Below, in pieces: positions 8,834 to 47,704 of a DNA stretch of 64,000 nucleotides. This stretch comes from Elusimicrobiaceae bacterium (GTDB lineage: Bacteria > Elusimicrobiota > Elusimicrobia > Elusimicrobiales > Elusimicrobiaceae). Numbering within the stretch: position 1 is the first letter of the stretch; each line of letters opens with the position of its first letter. The notes beneath the pieces are model-generated. The model searched no databases, was not told the DNA's origin, and worked only from the letters and a program-made list of their open reading frames with translations. The stretch is from the NCBI GenBank assembly GCA_017961585.1, contig JAGCWX010000007.1:1-64000 (forward strand). Direction: 5' to 3'. The translations under genes and the position numbers were made by a program.

Positions 8834-8845
8834 TATAATTTAATT
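8834..8845 (+). promoter_or_regulatory. -10 box suggesting leaderless start of radical SAM gene
   Basis: TATAAT at 8834-8839 ends six bases before the ATG at 8846, so transcription would start at or within one base of the start codon. There is no ribosome binding site between. No good -35 box is visible. Confidence 0.4.
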
Positions 8846-9820
8846 ATGAATACACTGCAAGCTAACGATCAATGTGAAGAAGAACTTTTTTTTGTCCCGG
8901 GTTGTTTGGGGACATGTTGGTATGGAAAATACCACTATTTGGAGCCCTTTACCGGGTGCGAGCATGATTGTGTGTATTGTTACGCCAAAGGCCGTAGTGA
9001 TGTACTTACAAAAATTGCCGCTATGAACGGCCAATTTACAGATCCTCAAATTGGAATGGATCCGGAAAAGGCACTGGCACAAATTGCCAAAGAAATAGAA
9101 AAAGATCCCAATATCCACACGATTAAACTTTCTCGTTATACGGATATTTTTTCCAAAAAATTTGTGGCGAATGGATTTTCTTACTCGGTATTGAAACTAT
9201 TGGCGGAACATCCACAAATTAAACGCATCATTATCACAACCAAAGGCGTTCCTAACGAGCAAATCTTGGAGTTAATTAAAACTTATCCTCAAAAATTTTC
9301 GTACAGCGCGGCTATTAAACCAACGGCAAAAATTTGTATGGAAACGAATGTCCCCCCACAGGAAGAACGCATCCGCTGGGCTTCGCTAGCCAAGAAGGCC
9401 GGGGCATTGGTTACTGTACATATGGATCCGCTTATTGTGGGGTATGAAGACACGGAAGAAGTCCTCCGCCCGTTTTTTGCTAAACTCAAAGAAGCGGATT
9501 TAAACCGTGTGATGTTTTCATATTTGTTGTACGATTATACGATTGCTAAAAATATTATTGCCCGGTTTGGACAAGAATTTTTTGCCAAATTAAAGGAAAA
9601 TTATTTGCATAATGACCGTCAAATTTTGCCCCTTCAGCAAGAAACTACGTATTACGCCCTAAAGCATGAAGTAAAATTGGAAAGCGTTAAACGTATTTCT
9701 TCTTTGTTAAATGAGTTGGGTTTTGAATTCGTGGTTTGTGGGCTGAAATCTTCTGATAAAGAAGACGTGTCTGATTTAAAAAAATGCAGCCACGTATGTG
9801 ATGGCAAATTTTATGCCTAA
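8846..9820 (+). CDS. Radical SAM enzyme, spore-photoproduct-lyase-like (SplB/COG1533 type)
   Basis: A 324-residue protein. The radical SAM cluster motif is C38-x3-C42-x2-C45 within GCEHDCVYCYAKGR, the form seen in SplB-like DNA-photolyase-family proteins. It would bind a [4Fe-4S] cluster and cleave S-adenosylmethionine to start radical chemistry; the substrate is unknown, and a true spore photoproduct lyase role is doubtful. I chose the ATG at 8846 because sequence upstream in frame (to 8696) runs into the divergent methyltransferase and is not family-like. There is no ribosome binding site; see the -10 box at 8834. Its 3' end overlaps the ATP-grasp gene, so they are translationally coupled and probably act together. 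Confidence 0.8.
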   Translation: MNTLQANDQCEEELFFVPGCLGTCWYGKYHYLEPFTGCEHDCVYCYAKGRSDVLTKIAAMNGQFTDPQIGMDPEKALAQIAKEIEKDPNIHTIKLSRYTDIFSKKFVANGFSYSVLKLLAEHPQIKRIIITTKGVPNEQILELIKTYPQKFSYSAAIKPTAKICMETNVPPQEERIRWASLAKKAGALVTVHMDPLIVGYEDTEEVLRPFFAKLKEADLNRVMFSYLLYDYTIAKNIIARFGQEFFAKLKENYLHNDRQILPLQQETTYYALKHEVKLESVKRISSLLNELGFEFVVCGLKSSDKEDVSDLKKCSHVCDGKFYA

Positions 9821-30636: not shown

Positions 30637-33600
30637 TTATCGAATTCTTATTTCATCCGGGTGGGGCTCAATGATTTGCCCGCGCTTTTTGGCCTTATAC
30701 CGGGCATAGCGTTCTACCTGGCTCTGAACCAGCATATAGAACAGCGGAATCAGGACCAGCCCTGCTAAAGTACCAATTAACATCCCGTAAAATACAGGAA
30801 CCCCCAAAGCGCGGCGGCTGGCGGCCCCGGCCCCGGTGGCCATTACCATGGGGAGCATCCCCAAAATAAACGTGAATGCGGTCATCAGTACGGGCCGGAA
30901 GCGTTGGATAAGCCCGTCCATAGCGGCTTTGTACACACTAGCCCCGGATTTGTGTTCATCTTTGGCAAATTCCACAATTAAAATAGCGTTTTTGGCGGCT
31001 AAACCAACCAGTAATACCAACCCCAACTGGGCGTAAATGCTTAGTGATTGTCCGCTAATCCACAGCCCAAATAACCCCCCACCTACGGCGGCCACAACGG
31101 ACATCAGCACCGGTACCGGGATCGTCCAGCTTTCATACTGCGCTACGAGGAACAAGTACGCAAAGATAACGGCCAACATAATCAACATATTGATTTGCCC
31201 TTTGTTTTGTTTTTCCTGATAGCTCATGCCCGTCCACTCATAGGCGTATCCGGGCGGCAAGTTTTTAAGAATTTGCTCCGTCTTTTCCATCGCTTGCCCG
31301 GAGCTGGAATTAGCATTGGGTGTACCCATCACCGTAGCGGCGGGGTATTGGTTGTAACGCGTAATTTGACGCGGTGACAAAATGTACTTTTGGTCCACCA
31401 GTGCCATTAAAGGTACCAACTCCCCGGTAGAACTGGTAACGTACATTTTGTTGATGTTTTCAGGCGTCATGCGGTACTTACTGTCGGACTGCATGATTAC
31501 TTTGTTAATTTGCGTGCCGAAGTTCACGTCTCCCACGTACGAAGAACCCAGGTAGTTTTCCAAAATGGAAAAGACGCTGGAAACGGGCACTTTCATGCTT
31601 TCGGCTTTTTGACGGTTAACGTCCAAATAAATGTTGGGCGTATCGGCTTTGAACGTGGCGTAGGCCACTTGCATCGTCGGATCCATCATCATTTGATACC
31701 CGATGCCCGTAGAAACATTAGCCAGTTTTTGGTAGTCAAAATCGTTAAGTGACTGGATACGTAAATCGAGTCCTCCCGACGTACCCAACCCCGGAATAGA
31801 CGGCATTTCTACCACGCGGATGGTGGCCTCGGGGATGCGGGAAAATTGCATATTAAACTGGCGTGCCAGGTCGCTTTGCAATTTGCTGGGCATAGGTTTC
31901 TTGCGCAATTTATTAAACATGCGTCTTAGAAAACTGGGTTGTTTACGTTGGTTCCACGGATCTAAAGTGACGAACACAACCGCCGTATTTTCCCCCGACC
32001 CACCCAACAAGCTAAACCCGGTAACGGCCGTAGTATGTTTGATACCCGGCGTACTACCCAGTTCAGCAAGCACTTGGTCCATTACTTTTTGCGTACGCGC
32101 GAAAGTGGCTCCTTCAGGTAACTGCACATCTACCACCAAAATCCCTTGGTCTTCTAGCGGAATAAACGAGGTAGGCATCACTTGTAAGAACACAAAATCC
32201 AGTGCCACAAATCCGCCGAATAAAAGCGCAATAATAAACTTGCGCGCCAGTTTGCGCACGACGGTGCGGTACCCGCGTGAGCCGCGTTGCACCGCCATGT
32301 TAAACCACCGCAAGAACCAAATATTGGTTTCTTTGATAGGTTTTAACATAGTAGCACAAATGGCCGGGGATAAGGACAACGCATTGAGTGTGGAAAAACA
32401 CACCGCCACGGAAATGGTTACGGCAAATTGCGTGTAAATTTTACCGGTAATCCCCCCCATAAATGTAATAGGGATAAAGATAGCCAGTAGCACTAGCGTT
32501 GTAGCGATCAATGCGCTGGAAAGTTCGTCCATCGCTTGTTCGGCCGCGTGGTGGGCTGATTGTTTTTCACGGTTCATCAGCACAATCACACGTTCCACCA
32601 CACAAATAGCGTCGTCTACTACCAGCCCGATGGCCAATACCAAGGCAAACAGGGTAAACATGTTAATAGAATATCCCAACGCCATCATTACGGCAAATGT
32701 ACCGAGCAAAGAAACCGGAATCGTGGCCGCAGGTACTAAGGTAGCACGCCAATCCTGCAAGAACACGTAACACACAATTACTACCAGTATGAAAGTAAGC
32801 ATCAACGTAAAAACAACTTCTTCTACGGAAGCATTAATAAAACCGGTTGTATCAAAAGAGAACTCATAATTTAACCCTTTGGGGAAGAATTGTTCCAAAC
32901 GTTTGAGTTCTTTGCGTACCCCTTCAATCGTTTCCAATGCGTTGGCACCAGAAGAGAGGTTAATCATCATCGGGACCGACATTTTGCGGTCAAAAGATGC
33001 GCCAAAACCGTAAGATTCTTTGCCTTCTTCCACTTTAGCAATATCCGAGAGGCGCACAATTCCGCCCTGGTTATCGGTACGGATAATGATATTTTGGAAA
33101 TCTTTGGCGTTATTTAAACGACCGTCGGTTTGTAGTGCATATACCGTCAGTACACTCCCGTCGTTAGGACGAGCCCCGATTTTACCCAAAGAAGGTTGAT
33201 AGTTTTGCGTGGAAATAGCGTTTTTAACGTCAGCAATGGAAATATCTAACGCGGCCATTTTATCTGAGTCCAGCCACACACGCATACTCTTGGCCGCTCC
33301 GAACACGCGGGCCTCGCCCACGCCGTTTACGCGGCTAATATTTTTTTGAACGTTATTATTTAAGTAATCACTAATTTCTAATTCACTTAGGGTTCCTTCA
33401 TCTGCGGTAAAAGATACAAACCCTAAAATGTTAGACGAACGGCGAAACACACTAATCCCTTGGCGTGTCACTTCGGGCGGTAAAAGCGGAGTTGCTTGCG
33501 AAACGCGGTTTTGTACTTTTACCTGTGCAATATCCGGGTCCACCCCCGTTTTAAATGTAACGGTTAGCATGTAGGAGCCGTCAGCCGAATCAGAGGACAT

Positions 33601-33834
33601 ATAAAGCATGTCTTCCACCCCGTTGACGGAAGCTTCCAGCGGAATCCCTACCGTTTTGGCAATTACCTCCGCACTGGCCCCGGGATAAGCGGCACGCACT
33701 ACTACTTCAGGCGGAGTGATTTCCGGATACAATGCAACCGGTAAATTTTTAAGTGCAATCGCCCCAGCTAAACACAATACCAGTGAAATAACGACCGCAA
33801 AACGCGGACGGTTAATAAAAAATTTAGCAAACAT
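30637..33834 (-). CDS. RND multidrug efflux pump, inner-membrane transporter (AcrB/MexB type, HAE1)
   Basis: A full-length 1065-residue RND pump driven by the proton gradient. It has the N-terminal FFINRPRFAVVISLVL helix, two large periplasmic loops after TM1 and TM7, and the proton-relay aspartates in AIGLVVDDAICVVERV of TM4, followed by the conserved VFLQDWRATLVP and GAAKNAILIVEFAKD-like segments. It works with the membrane fusion protein and TolC-like channel encoded upstream in the same operon. The ATG follows the MFP stop codon directly. The C-terminal tail is basic. Confidence 0.96.
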   Translation of the reverse strand: MFAKFFINRPRFAVVISLVLCLAGAIALKNLPVALYPEITPPEVVVRAAYPGASAEVIAKTVGIPLEASVNGVEDMLYMSSDSADGSYMLTVTFKTGVDPDIAQVKVQNRVSQATPLLPPEVTRQGISVFRRSSNILGFVSFTADEGTLSELEISDYLNNNVQKNISRVNGVGEARVFGAAKSMRVWLDSDKMAALDISIADVKNAISTQNYQPSLGKIGARPNDGSVLTVYALQTDGRLNNAKDFQNIIIRTDNQGGIVRLSDIAKVEEGKESYGFGASFDRKMSVPMMINLSSGANALETIEGVRKELKRLEQFFPKGLNYEFSFDTTGFINASVEEVVFTLMLTFILVVIVCYVFLQDWRATLVPAATIPVSLLGTFAVMMALGYSINMFTLFALVLAIGLVVDDAICVVERVIVLMNREKQSAHHAAEQAMDELSSALIATTLVLLAIFIPITFMGGITGKIYTQFAVTISVAVCFSTLNALSLSPAICATMLKPIKETNIWFLRWFNMAVQRGSRGYRTVVRKLARKFIIALLFGGFVALDFVFLQVMPTSFIPLEDQGILVVDVQLPEGATFARTQKVMDQVLAELGSTPGIKHTTAVTGFSLLGGSGENTAVVFVTLDPWNQRKQPSFLRRMFNKLRKKPMPSKLQSDLARQFNMQFSRIPEATIRVVEMPSIPGLGTSGGLDLRIQSLNDFDYQKLANVSTGIGYQMMMDPTMQVAYATFKADTPNIYLDVNRQKAESMKVPVSSVFSILENYLGSSYVGDVNFGTQINKVIMQSDSKYRMTPENINKMYVTSSTGELVPLMALVDQKYILSPRQITRYNQYPAATVMGTPNANSSSGQAMEKTEQILKNLPPGYAYEWTGMSYQEKQNKGQINMLIMLAVIFAYLFLVAQYESWTIPVPVLMSVVAAVGGGLFGLWISGQSLSIYAQLGLVLLVGLAAKNAILIVEFAKDEHKSGASVYKAAMDGLIQRFRPVLMTAFTFILGMLPMVMATGAGAASRRALGVPVFYGMLIGTLAGLVLIPLFYMLVQSQVERYARYKAKKRGQIIEPHPDEIRIR

Positions 33835-35086: not shown

Positions 35087-36424
35087 TTATTTCCCTACAC
35101 TTCTATATAGATTTGCTTTGCTTAACAGTAAACTGTAAAAAGCAGAAATTTTATTTTGCCGTGCTTCAGCCAATTGCGCCACCGCATCCAACAAGGTTAT
35201 AATATCACCCTTACCTACCTGGTAATAGCGGAAAGCTACCCGGTGGTTTTCTTCGGCACTTTCCAGTACGGTTTGGCTGATTTCGTATGAGCGCTTAGAC
35301 GTTTTGTAATGTTGATAATTGCTCCATACTTCATTTTGAATAGCCAAACGCAAATTTTGCGTATTGGCTTGTTCTTGCTGATAGGCCCAAGAGGCCGATT
35401 TTACTCTATACAAGTTAGAAAACCCGGTAAACAACGGTACACTAACGACCAATCCGGCCACGTTTTCACGTCCATAGTAGGAGGAATGTTTCCAGGTGGT
35501 ATCGGCAAGATCGGCCGAAGCGGTGGCACTAAGTGACGGGAGCATACCTGTCTTGGCCGCCGTGACGCTGGATTTCGCGGCGCGTTCTTGGCTTTCTTGT
35601 GCGCGCAGTTCCGGGCGGTTAGCCAAGGCATCTTTCATTAGTTCTTGTACATCGTCTTTTTCAATAGAGATATCCGCTTGGTCAAACACCGGTTTTTTTA
35701 GTTGCAGCTGTGTATCTGGCGATAAATTTAACAAGATAGCCAGTTGGCCGCTAAATTGTTTAATTTCGTCTTCTGCCAACACCACGGATAACAACGCTTG
35801 TTCATAGCGGGTTTTGGCTTGTAAGTTATCGCTTAAAGAAACCATGCCCAATTTGTAGCGTTTTTGCGCCTCAGTATAGGATTGTTTGTAGGAATCCAAA
35901 CTGGCATTGGCGCTGACGAGCGTTTCCTGCGCGGCTAATAATCTTAAGTAGGCCGTTTGTACGGAAAGCATTAAATCATGTAAGGCGGCATTATAGCCAT
36001 AGTTGGCGGCATCGGCATAAGCGCGCAACGTGTTGATGCGGCTTTCGCGCCCCCCAAAATCAAACAAAAGCCACGCGGCTTCGGCCTTGGCAGCATAAGG
36101 TTCTGTTTGCGCATATCCACCGTGGCTTTCCATGCGGACGCCGCTAATGCCGGCGTTCCCTGTCAAGCGGATAGTAGGTAAATACTCATTCCGGCCGCTA
36201 CCCAAATTGGCCTCATTGGCTTTGACCCCCATGTATTGGGCACTCAAAGCCGGGTTAGTACAAACACCGATTTGTACTAAATCATCCAACGAAAGCGGGT
36301 CATGGGCGATATCTTTATCAATGCACCCTTTTGGCGGCTGCGCTTTGGACGTAAACAACGGGTCAAATGCCATACACGGCAAAGCCACACTACAAAGCAA
36401 CCCTATCAACAATTGTTTTTTCAT
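35087..36424 (-). CDS. TolC-family outer-membrane efflux channel
   Basis: A 445-residue outer-membrane factor with a signal peptide (MKKQLLIGLLCSVALPCMA). Long amphipathic helices with repeated NPALSAQ/RPELRAQESQERAAKSSV type segments mark the two OEP repeats; GNAGISGVR- and ADLADTTW-like strands form the barrel part. It would complete the tripartite pump with the adaptor and RND protein downstream. Its ATG overlaps the tetR stop by four bases. Confidence 0.92.
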   Translation of the reverse strand: MKKQLLIGLLCSVALPCMAFDPLFTSKAQPPKGCIDKDIAHDPLSLDDLVQIGVCTNPALSAQYMGVKANEANLGSGRNEYLPTIRLTGNAGISGVRMESHGGYAQTEPYAAKAEAAWLLFDFGGRESRINTLRAYADAANYGYNAALHDLMLSVQTAYLRLLAAQETLVSANASLDSYKQSYTEAQKRYKLGMVSLSDNLQAKTRYEQALLSVVLAEDEIKQFSGQLAILLNLSPDTQLQLKKPVFDQADISIEKDDVQELMKDALANRPELRAQESQERAAKSSVTAAKTGMLPSLSATASADLADTTWKHSSYYGRENVAGLVVSVPLFTGFSNLYRVKSASWAYQQEQANTQNLRLAIQNEVWSNYQHYKTSKRSYEISQTVLESAEENHRVAFRYYQVGKGDIITLLDAVAQLAEARQNKISAFYSLLLSKANLYRSVGK

Positions 36425-37071
36425 TTATTTGTTCCTTTCTCGTATAATTTTAAAATAGCAAGGGTGTTTTTCCACACGATGTCTTTAATTTGTTGATGTA
36501 ACTGCGGGGAAAACGTCCTTTGCTTTAAATCGTGCAAGAGTGCAATACGGTGACACTCGGAAAAATTGATTTGCCCAAAAATCACGTGAGTAATAATCAC
36601 CAGTTCTACGGAATGTTCTTTAAGGCCGGTTAGTTTGCTGATAATTTTATAGGGCCGCGTGTGATATCCTTCCAAAAATGAAAACAACAAGGGCAAAAGC
36701 TCTTTGGAATTATCCAGCGCAGCGTGTGTAAAAATACGTTCCAGCGGCAACATTTTGCTATCTAACCCCAGGTCGGTTACTATGTCTAATAAATCGTGCA
36801 ATAGTTGCAAAGTTTGCTCGTGGGAAAGCGTATCCAATTTATTGAGCGCGTCCGCTATTTTTTTATCTTGTTGAAAAGGTTTGTGCTGTTCGTTGGCTAG
36901 GTATTTAACCGTTTCCAAATAAAGGGAGCGCTTATCGCCAAAATAATAATTTACCGCCGAAACATTCATGTGAGCTGCGGCTACAATTTCGCGCACGGAA
37001 GTATCCGTATATCCTTTTTGAGCAAATATACGCGCGGATGTTTTTAAAAGTTTAAGCCGAGCATCTTTCAT
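36421..37071 (-). CDS. TetR-family repressor of the efflux operon (CecR/DUF1956-like)
   Basis: A 216-residue regulator. The N-terminal helix-turn-helix (FAQKGYTDTSVREIVAAAHMNVSAVNYYFGDKRSLY) is a classic TetR DNA-binding domain; the C-terminal ligand domain with HVIFGQINFSECHR resembles the CecR/DUF1956 group. ATG 37071 is chosen: it starts MKDARLKLL, whereas the in-frame ATG 37107 would place the -10 box within the gene. It is the first gene of the pump operon and likely autoregulates through the palindrome upstream. Confidence 0.92.
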   Translation of the reverse strand: MKDARLKLLKTSARIFAQKGYTDTSVREIVAAAHMNVSAVNYYFGDKRSLYLETVKYLANEQHKPFQQDKKIADALNKLDTLSHEQTLQLLHDLLDIVTDLGLDSKMLPLERIFTHAALDNSKELLPLLFSFLEGYHTRPYKIISKLTGLKEHSVELVIITHVIFGQINFSECHRIALLHDLKQRTFSPQLHQQIKDIVWKNTLAILKLYEKGTNK

Positions 37072-37078
37072 ACAAAAA

Positions 37079-37125
37079 ATTATAACATAAACAAACAAAA
37101 AATTCAAACAATTGTTTGAATTTTT
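37079..37125 (-). promoter_or_regulatory. Promoter with 28-bp perfect palindrome operator of the tetR-efflux operon
   Basis: On the minus strand TTGAAT (37102-37107), a 17-base spacer and TATAAT (37079-37084, preceded by TGT). The perfect palindrome 37098-37125, centred on CAATTG with half-site AAAAATTCAAACAA, covers the -35 box. TetR dimers bind such palindromes, so repression by the adjacent regulator is the likely control. The -10 box ends seven bases before the tetR ATG, so the mRNA would be leaderless. Confidence 0.75.
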
Positions 37126-37197: not shown

Positions 37198-38070
37198 TTA
37201 GTTCTTTTTTGCCAGTAATTTTTTCAAATATTCGTAATAATTATTTTTAGGTGCCTTGGCCAAACGGGCTTGCAATTGTGCGGGGGTAATGAACCCTTTG
37301 CTCAGCGCAATTTCTTCCAAGCAGGCAATTTCTACCCCTTGGTTTACTTGCATACTGTGCACAAAATTGCTGGCTTGCAACACGCTTTCGTGCGTACCGG
37401 TATCCAGCCAGGCAAAGCCGCGGCCTAAGTGTGCTACGTGCAAATTGTCTTGTTCCAAATAGAGGCGGTTTAAGTCGGTAATTTCCAGCTCACCGCGTGC
37501 GGACGGAGTTAGCTCTTTGGCTAGTTTGGCCACTTGATTATCGTAGAAATACAAGCCGGTTACAGCAAAATTACTTTTGGGATTTTTGGGCTTTTCTTCC
37601 AAGGAAATAGCTTTGCCGGTTTTATCAAATTCCACTACCCCAAAACGTTCCGGATCGTTCACCTCATAGGCAAAGACAGTAGCCCCCGGGCGGGGTTTAG
37701 CTGCTTGGGTTAATATTTCTTCAAAACCGTTACCGTAGAAGATGTTATCACCCAAAATAAGGGCACAATCACTCTTGCCGATAAAGGCCTCCCCCAAGAT
37801 AAAAGCATCTGCAATCCCGCGCTTGATATGCTGAATCATGTAGGAAAGTTTAATTCCCCACTTTTCTCCGGTTCCCAAAACACGTTTAAAGTTATCATTA
37901 TCCTCTGGATTAGTAATGATCAAAATGTCTTTAATTCCCGCTTGCATAAGTACTGAAAGCGGATAATAAATCATAGGTTTGTTATAAATGGGTAGTAAAA
38001 TCTTGGAAATAGGTAAAGAGGCCGGATATAAGCGTGTGCCAGCTCCCCCCGCTAAGATAATTCCCTTCAT
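37198..38070 (-). CDS. rmlA: Glucose-1-phosphate thymidylyltransferase
   Basis: A 290-residue nucleotidyltransferase making dTDP-glucose from dTTP and glucose 1-phosphate. [45 protein letters not shown] and the late [14 protein letters not shown] are RmlA signatures, and length matches. AGGAGG precedes ATG 38070; the ORF upstream in frame belongs to the phosphatase gene, which it overlaps by four bases. RmlB, C and D are not in the window, so the rest of dTDP-sugar synthesis must be elsewhere. Confidence 0.95.
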
Positions 38071-38531
38071 AATTGTTCCTCCTGTGATGTTGAAAAATCG
38101 TGTTGGATGTGGGCTGCTGCGTCCTGACAAACCTGATAGAGCTGTTTGCCAAATTTATCAAACACACGCCCATCAAAAGAAATAGGGTCTACTAGATCTT
38201 GCTCCTTGCCGGATGCAAAATCCGCCAGCAACCACATTTTATCCGTATGCTGGGGATATCGGTCCAACAGAAAATCCAGATGAAGTTTTTCCATACAAAA
38301 AATCAAATCTGCCTCTTGCAAATCAGTAGCTCGCAACGGGGTGGCTGTGTGTCCCTCAAACTTAATATTATGCATCTGTAAAGCATGCACGACCTTTTGA
38401 GGAACATTATAAGTTGGATCTGCGTATAGCCCACGAGAAAATACGTTCACCCCAGGCAATAATTGTTTTAAAAATTCCTGTGCCATAAAACTGCGGCAAA
38501 TATTTGCGTGGCAAATGCATAAAATCTTCAT
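38067..38531 (-). CDS. Low-molecular-weight protein tyrosine phosphatase (Wzb/Etp type)
   Basis: A 154-residue LMW-PTP. The catalytic P-loop is C7-x5-R13 (CHANICRS) and the general-acid Asp lies in LVDPISF. Such enzymes dephosphorylate the tyrosine-rich tail of Wzc-type kinases; a Wzc gene with eight C-terminal tyrosines lies nearby at 40917-42623, though on the other strand. The gene is coupled to rmlA. Its start is only 35 bases from the divergent ligase gene, and it shows AAGG directly before ATG, too close for a normal ribosome binding site. Confidence 0.9.
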
Positions 38532-38538
38532 CCTTATT

Positions 38539-38560
38539 AATATAGCAAATTTGATAAAAT
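38539..38560. promoter_or_regulatory. Back-to-back -10 boxes in a 35-bp divergent spacer
   Basis: Minus strand TATATT (38539-38544) ends seven bases before the phosphatase ATG; plus strand TAAAAT (38555-38560) ends six bases before the ligase ATG. The 35-bp spacer leaves no room for a normal leader on either side. -35 boxes are not recognisable. Confidence 0.4.
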
Positions 38561-38566
38561 AACTAT

Positions 38567-40216
38567 ATGCATTTATTTTTAAAGATTCTCGTGGCTGTAC
38601 TTATCTTTTTTACGCCATTTAGTTTTGCCGCTACCGAACCGTGGGCTTTTTGTATCGTGCAAGGGTTGTTACTGCTGGCGTGGATTGTGTTACTGATTTG
38701 GCGCAGGGAGTTTTTTTATTCTCACCTTTTTAAACCAGTTGCTTACGTATTTCTAGTCCTCATCGGGTTGGGATTGCTGCAGAGTTGTTTTGCGCACACG
38801 TTGTTGCAGAGTTCGGTTTGGTATCCGGTTACTTTGATACGGTTGTATACTTTTGACCACCTATCCTTGTTTGTTACTTATTTTGGGGTTGTCTGCTTGG
38901 CATTCCAGGTATATGCCTCTTTCGATGAAGTTAAACAGCTTTTGGGGTGCTTGATAGTATGTGGGCTGGCGGTGGCTTTGTGCGCGCTTATATTCCCGCA
39001 TGGAACATATATCATCAAATTGACGGGCATTCGCCAGGCGGCCGAGGCCGTAGGCCCCTTTTTAAACCGCAACCACGGTGGTTTGTTTTTAGCTATGAAT
39101 GCCCTGTTGGCATTAGGATTGTTTTTTACGTATCAATTACAGGGGCTTAAGGCACTGGGATCTCAAGCCAAACGGACTTTTGTGGTCAAACAATGTTGGT
39201 TAGGTGCCGTTGTGCTGGGGCTAATTTTGGCGGCAGTGTTTTCCCGCTCACGCGGGGCGATGCTTTCGCTGTTTATTGGATTATTTAGCTATGCTTTGCT
39301 TTGTATGTGGTGCGTGCCGCAACAAATTCGCAAACGTTTAAAGAGAATCTTTTATACTCTATTATTATTGGGGGCATCTTGCGCTTGGATTTACGCACAC
39401 ATCCCGCAAATCAATGAATTTTCTCATCGTACTTCCGGGGTATCGGCGGATATCCGTCAAATGATGTACCGAGGGGCTGTGGATATACTCAAACAATACC
39501 CGATATGGGGAATTGGAGAAGGAGCCCTGCCGGTGGTCATTCCTTCTTATACGGAGGTGCGGCTTAGTCATTACATAGAACACTTGCATAATGACTGGCT
39601 GGAAATGACCGTAGAAATTGGGCTCATAGGCGCCGGGCTGGTACTGATTGGATTTATTTGGTTTGCTGTTCTTGCTCTTAAAAAGCTCAAACGCTTGCCC
39701 CCCCATAAGCAGTTTTTATTTGCGGCCTTGCTCAGTGCCTTGCTTGCCATGAGCATAGGTTGTTTGGTGGATTTTCACTTTTTCATACCGGGTTGTTCTC
39801 TGGTATTTTTGTGGGCATTGGGAGGGTGTCTCTCCCCCACTTTTCACAAAGGACACGTGCACGCCATTCATATGGGATGGGTGATTAAAATCATAATTTT
39901 GGCTTGTTTCTTTGCTGCGTGCGTGATTCCATTCCAAAAGGCGCGGGCTTGGCGAGCTGTTTGGTTTGGTAAAGGGCTTAAAACGGAAGGAAAATTGAAA
40001 GCTTACCAGCAGGGGCTTGCTTATTACCCTAGCCCACGCAATGCTGTACGCCTGGGGAATGCTTATTACAATGCTTCTAAGTATGAAGACGAGTGGATTA
40101 TGCAGGTCTATTATCTGGAGCTTGCTCAGCAAATTGCGCAAGAGTATTTGGAAAAATACCCCAAAGATAAAGAACTCTCTCAGTTGTATTTACGTACCCA
40201 GCGGCAGTTAGACTAG
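38567..40216 (+). CDS. O-antigen ligase/polymerase family protein (Wzy_C/WaaL type)
   Basis: A 549-residue protein with about 11-12 transmembrane segments up to residue 440. The Wzy_C/O-antigen ligase signature is YIEHLHNDWLEMTVEIGLIG, on a periplasmic loop, preceded by RNHGGLF. It would join or polymerise undecaprenyl-linked glycan in the periplasm. The C-terminal 100 residues are soluble and resemble a short TPR-like helical region (LKAYQQGLAYYPSPRNAVRLGNAYY). There is no ribosome binding site before the ATG; the -10 box sits six bases upstream. A second Wzy-like protein is encoded at 57638-58804. Confidence 0.85.
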   Translation: MHLFLKILVAVLIFFTPFSFAATEPWAFCIVQGLLLLAWIVLLIWRREFFYSHLFKPVAYVFLVLIGLGLLQSCFAHTLLQSSVWYPVTLIRLYTFDHLSLFVTYFGVVCLAFQVYASFDEVKQLLGCLIVCGLAVALCALIFPHGTYIIKLTGIRQAAEAVGPFLNRNHGGLFLAMNALLALGLFFTYQLQGLKALGSQAKRTFVVKQCWLGAVVLGLILAAVFSRSRGAMLSLFIGLFSYALLCMWCVPQQIRKRLKRIFYTLLLLGASCAWIYAHIPQINEFSHRTSGVSADIRQMMYRGAVDILKQYPIWGIGEGALPVVIPSYTEVRLSHYIEHLHNDWLEMTVEIGLIGAGLVLIGFIWFAVLALKKLKRLPPHKQFLFAALLSALLAMSIGCLVDFHFFIPGCSLVFLWALGGCLSPTFHKGHVHAIHMGWVIKIIILACFFAACVIPFQKARAWRAVWFGKGLKTEGKLKAYQQGLAYYPSPRNAVRLGNAYYNASKYEDEWIMQVYYLELAQQIAQEYLEKYPKDKELSQLYLRTQRQLD

Positions 40217-40236
40217 CCAAGTCCTCCTGAATTTGC

Positions 40237-40242
40237 TATAAT
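40237..40242 (+). promoter_or_regulatory. -10 box of the wza-wzc unit
   Basis: TATAAT ends nine bases before the ATG at 40252, with no Shine-Dalgarno sequence between. If used, the mRNA would have a leader of two or three bases at most. Confidence 0.4.
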
Positions 40243-40251
40243 ATAAGCACT

Positions 40252-40905
40252 ATGAAACTTCAAACTCTCACCCCCTACTGTATAGTAGTTTGTTTGGGTA
40301 TCCTGTGTGGATGCTCCAGCGCCCCCGTTGAAAAGGATAGCGCTCTCTCCAATAATATTACTCGTCAAGATGTTTCCAACGCTTTGCAACAAGTAAGGTC
40401 TTCTCAGGCGTATATATTGCAACCTGGGGATTTGGTAGATATTAAAGTATATATGGAAGACAATATGGACCGCGTACTACGTCTAAGCGGCAATGGAACG
40501 GTTACCTTCCCGCTGGTGGGGAATATCAAATTGTCGGGGCTGACGCTGGAACAAGCGGAACAAAAGCTGGCAAACCGTTTAACGGAATACATCCGCCAAC
40601 CGCAGGTTTCTATGTTGGTAAAAGAATACGGGAACAAAACTGTTTACGTGTTGGGGCAGGTATCTCGTCCGGCTGCTATCCAAATCCCGCCGGAGAAACA
40701 ACTTACTGTGTTGGAAGCAATCACTTCCGTAGGTGGATTTACCGATATTGCCAACACTTCCAAAGTGCGGGTGCTACGTGTAGAAGACGGCAAACAAAAA
40801 ACCATTGATGTAGACGTAAGCCAAATCACCAAACAAGGCAATAAGAGTATGGATATTGCTTTGCGTCCGGGTGATGTAATCTTCGTACCGCAGAGTATGT
40901 TCTAA
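40252..40905 (+). CDS. Polysaccharide export lipoprotein (Wza/OtnA type)
   Basis: A 217-residue lipoprotein: signal peptide with lipobox L18-C19-G20-C21, so the mature protein would be lipid-anchored at C21. The poly_export domain starts at YILQPGDLVDIKVY and runs through GNGTVTFPLVGNIKLSGLTLEQAEQKL; an SLBB domain (VYVLGQVSRPAAIQIPPEKQ) follows. Shorter than E. coli Wza (about 380 residues) as it has one SLBB repeat. It forms the outer-membrane export pore together with the Wzc protein encoded 11 bases downstream. Confidence 0.95.
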   Translation: MKLQTLTPYCIVVCLGILCGCSSAPVEKDSALSNNITRQDVSNALQQVRSSQAYILQPGDLVDIKVYMEDNMDRVLRLSGNGTVTFPLVGNIKLSGLTLEQAEQKLANRLTEYIRQPQVSMLVKEYGNKTVYVLGQVSRPAAIQIPPEKQLTVLEAITSVGGFTDIANTSKVRVLRVEDGKQKTIDVDVSQITKQGNKSMDIALRPGDVIFVPQSMF

Positions 40906-40916
40906 GGAAAAGGACT

Positions 40917-42623
40917 ATGAAAGACGAAGAATTAGATATAACTACCCTTATCAATTTAGTGTTAAAACGTTTTTGGTTGATTGCTGCTATGGCCCTCGTG
41001 GGGTTGGTGGCAGCTATTTTGGTTAATGTTTTTATGCGCCCGGTGTACGAAGCCACCACGCTGATGATGATCAACCAAGAAAATGCCGGGAAACTGGACG
41101 ATTCCCCCTACGGCAGCTTTGCCAGTATGGAAGATTATTACCGTACCCAATACCAGTTGTTGGGAAGCCGCTCCTTGCTGGAAAGCGTGTATAAACAGCT
41201 TGATTTGCGGCAATATGAAGAATTTTCCACCGGCTTAGGCAGGTTGCGCAAAGCGATTAAAATTGACCCGGTAACGCGCAGCCGTTTAGTAAACGTAAGG
41301 GCTCGCTCGTACGATCCCAATTTGGCTGCCGAAATTTCTAATACGTTAGCCAACAATTTTGTGCAAGAAAACGTCAGCAACCGTATTTCTATGGGGCAGG
41401 ACATTATTCGCGCCCTGGAAAGCACGGAAACCAGCGACGAAGAGCAAGAGCTTTTAAACTCTATGCCTCAGGTGGTCAATAGCGATTTTATCAAATCGCT
41501 CAAACAACAAGAGGCCTCCTTAGATCGTACCTGGGCTCAGCTTTCCGCCAAATATACCCCCCAACACCCCGAGGTAGTATCCGTAAAACGTCAGTTGGCA
41601 GCTACAAAAGCCCAAATTGCCTTGGAAACTCGCCGCTTGGTGCAAAGTATTAAGATTGAGCTTTCCGGTCAATTTTCGGGCAATAACGTGCGTATTGTGG
41701 ACCCGGCGGTTGTTCCTTCTTCGCCTATCTTGCCGCGCAAATTAATCAATATAGCCGTGGGTTTGCTAGGGGGTGCTATCCTGGGAGTACTACTTGTATT
41801 CTTATTGGAATTCCTGGATCAAACTGTGAAATCTTCCGAAGATTTGGAAAAGAAACTTAATTTGCCCTTTTTGGGGTTTGTTCCTTACGAAAAATCAAAG
41901 AAGAAAGAAGCCGAATATGCCTCCATGCTTAAAGAAGGCAATATTCTGCTGGCCGAAAACGTGCGCAATATCCGCACGATGTTAGATTTTACGCTGGCGG
42001 ACGATCGGCAGGCCCCGGTTTTAATTAGCAGCTCTATGCAGGGCGAAGGGAAGAGTAACCTTTCTTCTAACTTGGCAGTAGCCCTGGCGCAAACGGGCAA
42101 AAAAGTACTGCTTATTGACGGCGATTTGCGTCGTTGCCGCTTGCATAAAGTATTTAAAGTATCCCCGGAAAAGGGGCTTAGCAACATTTGGGACCGGGAT
42201 GCTGCGAAGGCGGATTATGCCTCTAACGTACAGCCGGCAAAAGATGTACCTAACTTGTTTATAATGACAGCCGGTCAACGTCCGCCAAACCCAACTGAAC
42301 TGTTAAATACCCCCCGCTTGGCAGATTTTATTGCCTGGGCGCAAAAGAATTATGACCACGTGTTAGTGGACTGCCCGGCTATCTTGCCGGTGGCGGATAC
42401 CATGCTGTGGGGTAAATACATCCCGCGTACCGTTTTTGTAATCCGGTACGGAAAAACCAATGCGCGTGCCGCCCAAATGGCCCTGGATAAACTACAAAAA
42501 GCCGGTGTAAAGGTATTGGGGGCTGTGATTGGTCACTACAAAGCCCAAGGGCTATCTTACGGCAAGTATGGGTATTATAAGAGCTATTCTTATTACTACT
42601 CTAACGATGACGAAAAAAAATAA
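40917..42623 (+). CDS. Wzc-type chain-length regulator and tyrosine autokinase
   Basis: A 568-residue BY-kinase. Wzz domain with one helix near residues 21-41, a periplasmic coiled-coil region, a second helix around 278-298 (LINIAVGLLGGAILG) and a cytoplasmic kinase domain: Walker A MQGEGKSN (near 372-379), Walker A' LLIDGDLRR and Walker B HVLVDCPAI. The tail (residues 545-568) has eight tyrosines, the expected autophosphorylation cluster. It would control polymer length and export with the lipoprotein encoded just upstream and the LMW-PTP nearby. A strong terminator follows. Confidence 0.95.
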   Translation: MKDEELDITTLINLVLKRFWLIAAMALVGLVAAILVNVFMRPVYEATTLMMINQENAGKLDDSPYGSFASMEDYYRTQYQLLGSRSLLESVYKQLDLRQYEEFSTGLGRLRKAIKIDPVTRSRLVNVRARSYDPNLAAEISNTLANNFVQENVSNRISMGQDIIRALESTETSDEEQELLNSMPQVVNSDFIKSLKQQEASLDRTWAQLSAKYTPQHPEVVSVKRQLAATKAQIALETRRLVQSIKIELSGQFSGNNVRIVDPAVVPSSPILPRKLINIAVGLLGGAILGVLLVFLLEFLDQTVKSSEDLEKKLNLPFLGFVPYEKSKKKEAEYASMLKEGNILLAENVRNIRTMLDFTLADDRQAPVLISSSMQGEGKSNLSSNLAVALAQTGKKVLLIDGDLRRCRLHKVFKVSPEKGLSNIWDRDAAKADYASNVQPAKDVPNLFIMTAGQRPPNPTELLNTPRLADFIAWAQKNYDHVLVDCPAILPVADTMLWGKYIPRTVFVIRYGKTNARAAQMALDKLQKAGVKVLGAVIGHYKAQGLSYGKYGYYKSYSYYYSNDDEKK

Positions 42624-45353: not shown

Positions 45354-46586
45354 TTAATCTTTTCTAAATAAGTCGCGTGTGTAGACTTTGTCCTTTACGT
45401 CATTTAATACGTCATCATACCGGTTGGCAATAATAGCTTGCGAACGTTTTTTAAATTGAGCCAAATCGTTGACTACTTCGCTGCCAAAGAAGGTGGAGCC
45501 GTTTTCCAGCGCAGGTTCATACACAATTACGGTAGCTCCTTTGGCTTTGATACGTTTCATAATTCCTTGAATAGAACTTTGGCGGAAATTGTCGCTACCG
45601 GTCTTCATGGTTAAGCGGTACACGCCGATGACAGCGTCATGTTCTTTGGCACTATCAAAAGTACTGTTTGCGTTGTAATACCCTGCTTTTTGAAGTACGC
45701 GGTCTGCAATAAAGTCTTTGCGGGTGCGGTTGGATTCCACAATGGCTTTAATGAGGTTTTGCGGAACATCTGCATAGTTAGCCAAAAGTTGTTTGGAATC
45801 TTTAGGCAAGCAATAACCGCCGTAACCAAACGAGGGGTTGTTGTAAGTGTTTCCAATGCGAGGATCCAAACATACCCCTTCAATAATTTGCTGGGTATTT
45901 AGGCCTTTAAGCTCGGCATAGGTATCTAATTCGTTAAAATAACTTACACGCAGGGCCAAGTAGGTATTTCCAAATAGTTTTACGGCTTCGGCCTCCGTGT
46001 AGCCCATATACAGGACCGGGATGTCTTTCTTAACCGCTCCCTCTTGCAAGAGTTTGGCAAAGACGTGTGCTTTTTCGGTCAGGGATTTATCATTTAAATC
46101 TGTACCTACCACAATGCGAGCTGGATACAAATTGTCATACAAAGCGTGGCCTTCACGCAAAAATTCGGGGCTAAATAAAATGTTTTTAAGACCCATTTTT
46201 TCACGAATTTGGCGCGTATATCCAACGGGAATGGTGGATTTAATAACCATAGTAGCTTTTGGATTATATTGCTGTACTAGCTTGATAACCGCTTCCACGG
46301 CCGAAGTATTAAAATAGTTTTGCTGGGCGTCGTAATTGGTGGGAGTGGCAATGATCACAAATTCAGCTTGTTCGTAGGCAGCTTTAGCGTCCGTAGTGGC
46401 CGTTAAATGCAAAGGTTTGTTTGCCAAAAAATCTTCAATTTCTTTATCGGCAATTGGGGATTTTTTATGATTGATTAAATCCACTTTTTCCGGCACGATA
46501 TCTACAGCGGTAACATCGTGATGTTGGGCTAATAATGTAGCCAAAGACAATCCCACATATCCAGTTCCGGCAACAGCAATTTTCAT
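45354..46586 (-). CDS. ugd: UDP-glucose 6-dehydrogenase
   Basis: A 410-residue NAD-dependent enzyme oxidising UDP-glucose to UDP-glucuronate. N-terminal [14 protein letters not shown] binds NAD; catalytic K203 lies in [20 protein letters not shown] and catalytic C259 in [19 protein letters not shown] precedes the ATG, which overlaps the upstream epimerase stop by four bases. With that epimerase it supplies UDP-glucuronate and UDP-galacturonate for acidic capsule sugars. Confidence 0.97.
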
Positions 46587-47668
46587 TTAATATTCTCCTT
46601 ACAGTAAAAATCTTTGTACCACTGTGCAAAATGACGCAACCCCTCGCGCAGGGAAATATGCGGCTTAAAGCCAAAATCTTGTTCTAAAGCGGTTGTGTCC
46701 GCATAAGTGGTGGGTACATCTCCAGGTTGCATAGCAACAAGCTCTTTATGGGCTTCAAAATCATACGTTTGCGGTAATACCCCCGCCCTAACCAATTCTT
46801 CTTGTAGAATTTGTACAAAATCAAGCAGCGTTTCCGGGGAATTGTTGCCAATATTGTATAGCGCATAAGGCGCAAGCGGCAGGCCGTCTTCCCCGTTTTG
46901 GCGTTTGGGTGCGCCCTGCATAACCCGCAAGACCCCTTCCACAATGTCATCCACGTAGGTAAAATCGCGCTTACAATGACCATAATTGAAAATTTTGATC
47001 TTTTCCCCCACACGCAACTTATTTGTAAAGCCAAAATACGCCATATCGGGCCGGCCGGCCGGGCCGTACACGGTAAAAAAGCGCAATCCTGTAGAAGGAA
47101 TATTGTAAAGCTTGGAATAAGCATGGGCTAATAATTCGTTGGATTTTTTGGTGGCCGCATACAAAGAGACGGGATTATCTACTTTGTCTTCCACTGCATA
47201 CGGTATTTTTTTATTGGAACCATACACGGAAGAGGAAGAAGCATAAACTAAATGTTCTACGCCTGTTTTCCCCCCGTCATACGAATGGCGGCACGCCTCT
47301 AAAATGTTGTAAAAACCGATGAGGTTGGCTTCTATGTAAGCGTCCGGATTGGTAATAGAATAGCGCACCCCTGCTTGAGCCGCCAAATTGACCACAACTT
47401 GCGGTTGATATTTGGCAAAAAGTTCGGTAATAAGGGCTTTGTCGGCCAGGTTGCCTTTGAGAAAGGTAAAATTGGATAGGTTTTTTAGTTGCGAAAGACG
47501 GTATTCTTTTAAGGAGACGTCGTAATAATCGTTTACACTATCCACGCCAATCACCCGGGCTGTTGGATATTCCCTGCAAACGCGTTCCACCAACGCAGCT
47601 CCAATAAACCCGGCCGCGCCAGTGATAAGAATGGTTTTGCCTTCTAAATTAAGTAGTGTTTTTGCCAT
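46583..47668 (-). CDS. UDP-glucuronate 4-epimerase
   Basis: A 361-residue extended [19 protein letters not shown] binds NAD, the catalytic YxxxK is YAATK in [11 protein letters not shown], and the [14 protein letters not shown] segment is diagnostic for UDP-GlcA 4-epimerases (GAE, Cap1J, LpsL). It converts UDP-glucuronate to UDP-galacturonate, using the product of ugd encoded just downstream. The ATG 47668 is chosen because the in-frame ATG 47734 would read through a promoter; the -10 box TATAAT ends six bases before 47668. Confidence 0.92.
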
Positions 47669-47674
47669 AAATAT

Positions 47675-47704
47675 ATTATACCAATTTGCTGGGCGTATTC
47701 CCAA
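47675..47704 (-). promoter_or_regulatory. Promoter giving a leaderless epimerase-ugd-vanZ mRNA
   Basis: On the minus strand TTGGGA, an 18-base spacer and TATAAT with an extended TGG in front. The -10 box ends six bases before the ATG at 47668 and no ribosome binding site intervenes. Confidence 0.6.

Follow-up and report, generated by a model that had tools for sequence, protein, structure and literature searches.

Extended -10 promoters placed directly before start codons predict leaderless mRNAs for about 15% of genes in an Elusimicrobium genome

The window analysed here is a stretch of 64,000 nucleotides, bases 1-64000 of contig 25 of a rumen Elusimicrobium MAG (1,488,895 bp in 36 contigs, 98% complete; the rebuilt contigs of the whole genome have 46.6% GC and contain 16,798 N), the close relatives of which are uncultured Elusimicrobium MAGs from rumen and gut. 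Rfam and tRNA scans of the 64-kb window gave no matches. Six of its protein-coding genes carry a -10 box immediately before the start codon, two of them facing away from each other across a very short spacer. These features are as follows, with boxes scored in bits under the genome's own -10 matrix:

8834-8839, plus strand: -10 box TATAAT (TTATATAAT; 8.0 bits; spacing 6 to the ATG at 8846)
8846-9820, plus strand: radical SAM protein (PF04055), predicted leaderless start
37079-37084, minus strand: -10 box TATAAT with TGT before it (TGTTATAAT; 10.6 bits; spacing 7 to the ATG at 37071)
36421-37071, minus strand: TetR-family regulator (PF00440, E 7.5e-13), predicted leaderless start
38555-38560, plus strand: -10 box TAAAAT, extended, TG at 38552-38553 (TGATAAAAT; 9.3 bits; spacing 6 to the ATG at 38567)
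38567-40216, plus strand: O-antigen ligase (Wzy_C; PF04932, E 6.6e-19), predicted leaderless start, start conserved
38539-38544, minus strand: -10 box TATATT, extended, TGC at 38545-38547 (TGCTATATT; 7.0 bits; spacing 7 to the ATG at 38531)
38067-38531, minus strand: low-molecular-weight (LMW) protein-tyrosine phosphatase, Wzb-like (PF01451, E 3.7e-21), predicted leaderless start
38532-38566, no strand: divergent spacer, 35 bp between the start codons of the phosphatase (minus) and the O-antigen ligase (plus), putative back-to-back leaderless promoters
38547-38552, no strand: self-complementary AAATTT flanked by the two -10 boxes, forming the upstream part of each promoter as judged from its match to the logo AAAwwTGnTAtAAT and from relatives
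40237-40242, plus strand: -10 box TATAAT with TGC before it (TGCTATAAT; 13.3 bits; spacing 9 to the ATG at 40252)
40252-40905, plus strand: polysaccharide export protein, Wza-like (PF02563), predicted to be leaderless or to have a leader of up to ~3 nt
47675-47680, minus strand: -10 box TATAAT with TGG before it (TGGTATAAT; 12.4 bits; spacing 6 to the ATG at 47668)
46583-47668, minus strand: NAD-dependent epimerase/dehydratase (PF01370, E 6.3e-54), predicted leaderless start

A previous sequence-only reading of this DNA had described all six as TATAAT-like boxes 6-9 nt before starts that lack a Shine-Dalgarno (SD) site, and this description holds: the spacings are 6, 7, 6, 7, 9 and 6 in the order listed, the scores run from 7.0 to 13.3 bits, and the best SD score at a usable distance is negative in every case. 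Conservation of the box in orthologues was also found for each of the six. The box stands before the start in two relatives for the gene at 8846 and ahead of the same start in seven relatives for the TetR gene at 37071 (proteins 44-84% identical), while same-kind boxes lie near the start of the 40252 orthologues in most relatives; for 47668, the upstream DNA of three relatives, compared by eye, seems to share nothing but the last ~20 bp, which hold the box. The gene divergent from 8846 (8777, minus strand) is SD-led, with an SD score of 7.6. Just upstream of the TetR-gene box, a perfect 18-bp palindrome at 37103-37120 (TTCAAACAATTGTTTGAA), partly kept upstream of orthologues, is probably the TetR-family repressor's own operator. 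Elsewhere in the window, the relatives of a 1065-aa protein encoded at 30637-33834 (minus strand) were found outside Elusimicrobium only in Sideroxydans and Marinomonas, at 38-39% identity, and horizontal transfer of its gene is possible.

The same arrangement recurs across the genome. Raw genome counts, made without any gene calling, give a lone peak of TATAAT-to-ATG at spacing 6 (57 cases vs ~14 at other spacings), answering the genome-wide count that the sequence-only reading had suggested as a check; TACAAT peaks at the same distance (45 at spacing 6 vs ~12 elsewhere). That the boxes are ordinary A/T-rich upstream sequence, with TATAAT-like words falling near starts by chance, would fit upstream regions of 62% A+T and a loose TANNNT that shows no spacing peak in the raw counts, but this reading is refuted by the exact-spacing peak, by boxes of at least 9 bits at 101 starts vs a mean of 2.4 (maximum 6) in shuffled upstreams, by a reversed-motif control that yields 19 matches in all vs 211 when starts are chosen by coding potential alone, and by conservation in orthologues, leaving it a practically negligible probability. 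Furthermore, boxes scoring 7 bits or more at spacing 5-9 precede 0.7% of all plus-strand ATGs vs 12% of called starts.

To describe the genes themselves we used EM to fit a two-motif mixture model, with unconstrained motif positions, to the upstreams of 1206 genes, called by our own caller rather than taken from a curated annotation; all class counts below rest on these starts. The first motif is an AGGAGG-like SD, 4-7 nt before the start in most genes and assigned to 65% of genes, and the second is an extended -10, TGcTAtAAT, assigned to 20% of genes and ending 6-9 nt before the start, with spacing 6 as the single dominant position. Seeding the fit with the wrong word TAATAT led to the same TAtAAT at spacing 6, and an uninformative 8-mer seed went to a coding-composition motif rather than a -10. 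Under the same pipeline, a genome of the same class with 31% GC (400 kb) gave no -10 peak; therefore the pipeline does not create the peak by itself. The assembly has no 16S gene; CCUCCUUU is given as the anti-SD for both Elusimicrobiota classes (PMC10783764), and we read it directly in two genomes of another class.

Taking as leaderless class all genes with a -10 box 5-9 nt before the start codon, we count 176 of 1206 genes (14.6%), with 123 boxes at spacing 6, 29 at 7, 13 at 8, 10 at 9 and one at 5. Their start codons are 169 ATG and seven GTG, with no TTG, and T occupies position -1 in 154 (88%), which produces the T(-1)A(+1) that an initiation site should show. An SD 4-mer is found in two class genes (1%) vs 65% of the remaining genes. 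The class supplies 142 of the 560 genes that head transcription units (25%). Its share is 35% among divergent genes; among tandem genes it is 15% where the distance is 50 bp or more and 5% where the genes follow closely. In samples of 80 vs 80, leaderless genes showed no clear bias in function. In SD-led first genes the -10 boxes lie mainly 10-50 nt upstream of the start, and two start modes therefore coexist; those boxes cluster at spacings of ~16-20 and 25-33 nt, from which short leaders of some 10-30 nt would follow. The sequence-only reading had supposed that leaderless promoters coexist with SD-led genes, and the fixed spacing, the lack of SD, the near-exclusive ATG, T(-1)A(+1), the enrichment at unit heads and the conservation in orthologues all point to such coexistence.

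The logo of the class is AAAwwTGnTAtAAT-N6-ATG. At the two TG positions T reaches 82% and G 67%, with an exact TG in 93 of 176 genes, and in 74 of the 123 spacing-6 genes A or T fills all five positions preceding TGn, vs 21% for the corresponding positions in SD-led first genes. A -35 is only weakly enriched: at least four of six matches occur in 51 of 176 genes vs ~31 at control offsets, and most of this excess falls in genes lacking TG. This shifts the emphasis of the sequence-only reading, which credited two of the window's boxes with good -35 or extended -10 elements: TGn is strong, but the -35 is no general feature, and inspection by eye revealed none upstream of the 47668 orthologues. 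By composition, the class promoters are of the extended -10 kind, with TGn adjoining the -10 box and a dispensable -35; the A/T block upstream of TGn is characteristic of them, and the -35 contributes weakly. Beyond what the earlier reading had offered lie the scale (~15% of genes), the core motif AAAwwTGnTAtAAT rather than a -35/-10 pair, and the conservation of the divergent spacer.

We propose that these sites act as extended -10 promoters with the consensus AAAwwTGnTAtAAT, of a type presumably read by the housekeeping sigma factor, and that a six-base discriminator would lead directly to the start codon. Such a discriminator should make the A of the AUG the first transcribed base and so yield a leaderless mRNA; RNA polymerase would start at that A or within ~3 nt of it, and the 5'-terminal AUG might be translated by 70S ribosomes or by 30S ribosomes loaded with initiator tRNA. 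For the ~13% of the class with spacings of 8-9, 40252 among them, a leader of 1-3 nt and no leader at all are equally likely. Some 15% of genes would thus be leaderless, mostly at the heads of transcription units, and ~65% would have SD leaders, with operon-internal genes mainly SD-led. Judged on sequence, we hold this explanation as a whole to be highly probable.

Two other explanations accept the promoters and differ in what follows from them. The true starts could lie further downstream behind an SD, the upstream ATGs being mis-called and the leaders ordinary; start prediction is indeed the weakest step of gene callers. However, an alternative in-frame start preceded by an SD within the next 30 codons occurs in 8.5% of leaderless genes, no more often than in SD genes (9.1%), and alignments of the orthologous proteins run from the first residue, most relatives sharing the start. 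The peak also persists when starts are chosen by coding potential alone, with 52 cases at spacing 6 and 0-1 at spacings 0-5. We regard systematic mis-calling as extremely unlikely. Alternatively, the boxes could give a minor transcript while the main mRNA comes from an upstream promoter and is translated independently of SD. The start at 40252 is 35 nt past the end of the ligase gene, so that read-through is likely there, and 31 class genes sit less than 50 bp behind a co-directional gene. Such an arrangement is hard to reconcile with the 35-bp spacer, which has no room for a further promoter outside the neighbouring coding sequence, with the 47668 orthologues, in which only the last ~20 bp upstream look conserved, or with the rarity of a second strong -10 within 200 bp in class genes, and as a general account it is very unlikely.

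At 38532-38566, where the divergent starts are exactly 35 bp apart as the sequence-only reading had reported, two promoters would stand back to back, one serving the phosphatase and the other the ligase, Wza and Wzc genes. The 10 bp between their -10 boxes include AAATTT, a self-complementary word that can therefore act as the upstream A/T block of both promoters, and the predicted transcription start sites (TSSs) are 36 bp apart. The phosphatase/ligase pair is divergent in 30 loci (that of the window, 28 from other members of the genus and one further locus, with two or three near-duplicates), with start codons 32-37 bp apart and homologues mostly 39-63% identical to the window proteins. The ligase-side box (at least 4 bits, spacing 6-8) is kept in 30 of 30 loci and the phosphatase-side box in 25, being weak in the other five; an SD-like score above 2 bits occurs at one of the 30 on the plus side and at two on the minus side. 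It could be argued that the conserved core of the spacer is primarily a regulator's operator rather than two -10 boxes, and the core (CTATAgCAAATTTtATAcAAT) does show partial symmetry and good conservation. Its parts nonetheless agree with the logo of promoters across the genome, AAAwwT block included, and stand at the expected distance from each start, and the spacer holds no separate conserved palindrome, which makes an operator unlikely.

On the two-promoter reading, the ligase side continues from the O-antigen ligase to a Wza-like exporter and a Wzc-like chain-length/kinase protein; with the phosphatase on one side and this kinase on the other, the spacer separates phosphatase from kinase. 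In the region 38067-42623, the Wzb-like phosphatase gene does not lie between the Wza- and Wzc-like genes but points away from them. The Wzc-like protein has a tyrosine-rich C-terminal tail of the kind typical of bacterial tyrosine kinases. From the geometry of the spacer, two polymerases could hardly bind it together, and mutual exclusion might follow; as speculation, competition between the promoters could set the phosphatase:kinase ratio. More tentatively than for the promoters themselves, we suggest that the 32-37 bp spacer may be a distinct, selected architecture in which two leaderless extended -10s share one AAATTT, so that occupancy in one direction blocks the other and the ratio of phosphatase to ligase, Wza and Wzc kinase would be set at the DNA itself, a possibility to which we give somewhat less than even credence. 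Genome-wide, double-leaderless divergent pairs form no general ~35-bp class: 16 were called vs 17.8 expected from independence, with spacings of 25-1457 bp.

Matches to TGNTANAAT-N6-ATG were counted in 341 genomes of the phylum. In 94 other genomes of at least 96% completeness, matches exceed the reversed control 13-fold for the genus, 8-fold for the family, 9.5-fold for the order, 18-fold for the class and 3-fold for other classes; two unrelated genomes from Proteobacteria had 2 and 5 matches, with 0 and 7 in the control. In a genome of the same order with 64% GC the peak is present (51-52 of 250 genes). In that genome and a second high-GC relative, of the same class (64-67% GC for the two), -10 boxes likewise lie at spacing 6-7; TG is less frequent in them, and the second genome more often has C at -1. 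The leaderless share may be near 20% in such high-GC relatives.

Genes led by a -10 box and lacking a leader are a known class. TA-led or leaderless genes were reported in 207 of 953 bacterial genomes, with a mean share of 19% (~20%) in Actinobacteria, 40% in Deinococcus-Thermus and 1.4-16.1% in 'other bacteria' (Zheng et al. 2011, PMC3160421); GeneMarkS-2 finds leaderless genes in 21.6% of bacterial species, as cited in PMC9581028. As in that survey of 953 genomes, where TANNNT/TAtaaT lies ~12 bp upstream of the start without SD and SD-led genes coexist, Elusimicrobium combines a fixed-spacing box, no SD although SD is used elsewhere in the genome, and AUG (rarely GUG), and its ~15% is near the Actinobacteria mean and inside the 'other bacteria' range. 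Unlike the genes of the survey, whose text does not name Elusimicrobia, its motif includes a strong TGn and an upstream A/T block. In Deinococcus-Thermus, -10 elements (TANNNT) adjoin ~30% of ORFs, and leaderless mRNA has been demonstrated with reporters (PMC12340547); the -10 directly before the start codon is shared with Elusimicrobium, where it is a prediction, whereas the motif here is TGnTAtAAT and the share ~15%. Cappable-seq of an intestinal community placed leaderless transcripts at 10-15% of TSSs in Akkermansia and Bifidobacterium (PMC4782308), a frequency comparable to the predicted one here, although measured from 5' ends in other phyla and without mention of Elusimicrobiota. In freely readable full texts, taken without their supplementary tables, we found no description of leaderless genes for Elusimicrobiota or Elusimicrobium; the 'other bacteria' of Zheng et al. 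may include one. Since the class is known, the Elusimicrobium case would be a new phylum-level member of it.

More unusual is the compact divergent promoter region with its two predicted leaderless starts. Bidirectional promoters of E. coli share a symmetric -10 and have TSSs 10, 18 or 23 bp apart, and strong activity in one direction brings out competition between the two (Warman et al. 2026, PMC12825309). The Elusimicrobium spacer resembles them in yielding divergent mRNAs from one compact region, where overlapping polymerase sites would permit competition; it differs in having two distinct -10s, predicted TSSs 36 bp apart rather than 10-23 bp, and no leaders. It would offer a clean natural test of polymerase competition, free of leaders and intervening regulator sites. 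More broadly, the Elusimicrobiota are predicted to join the phyla with substantial leaderless expression, a promoter model is gained for rumen and gut MAGs that lack genetics, and start callers that assume an SD may misplace up to ~1/7 of the starts in this genome.
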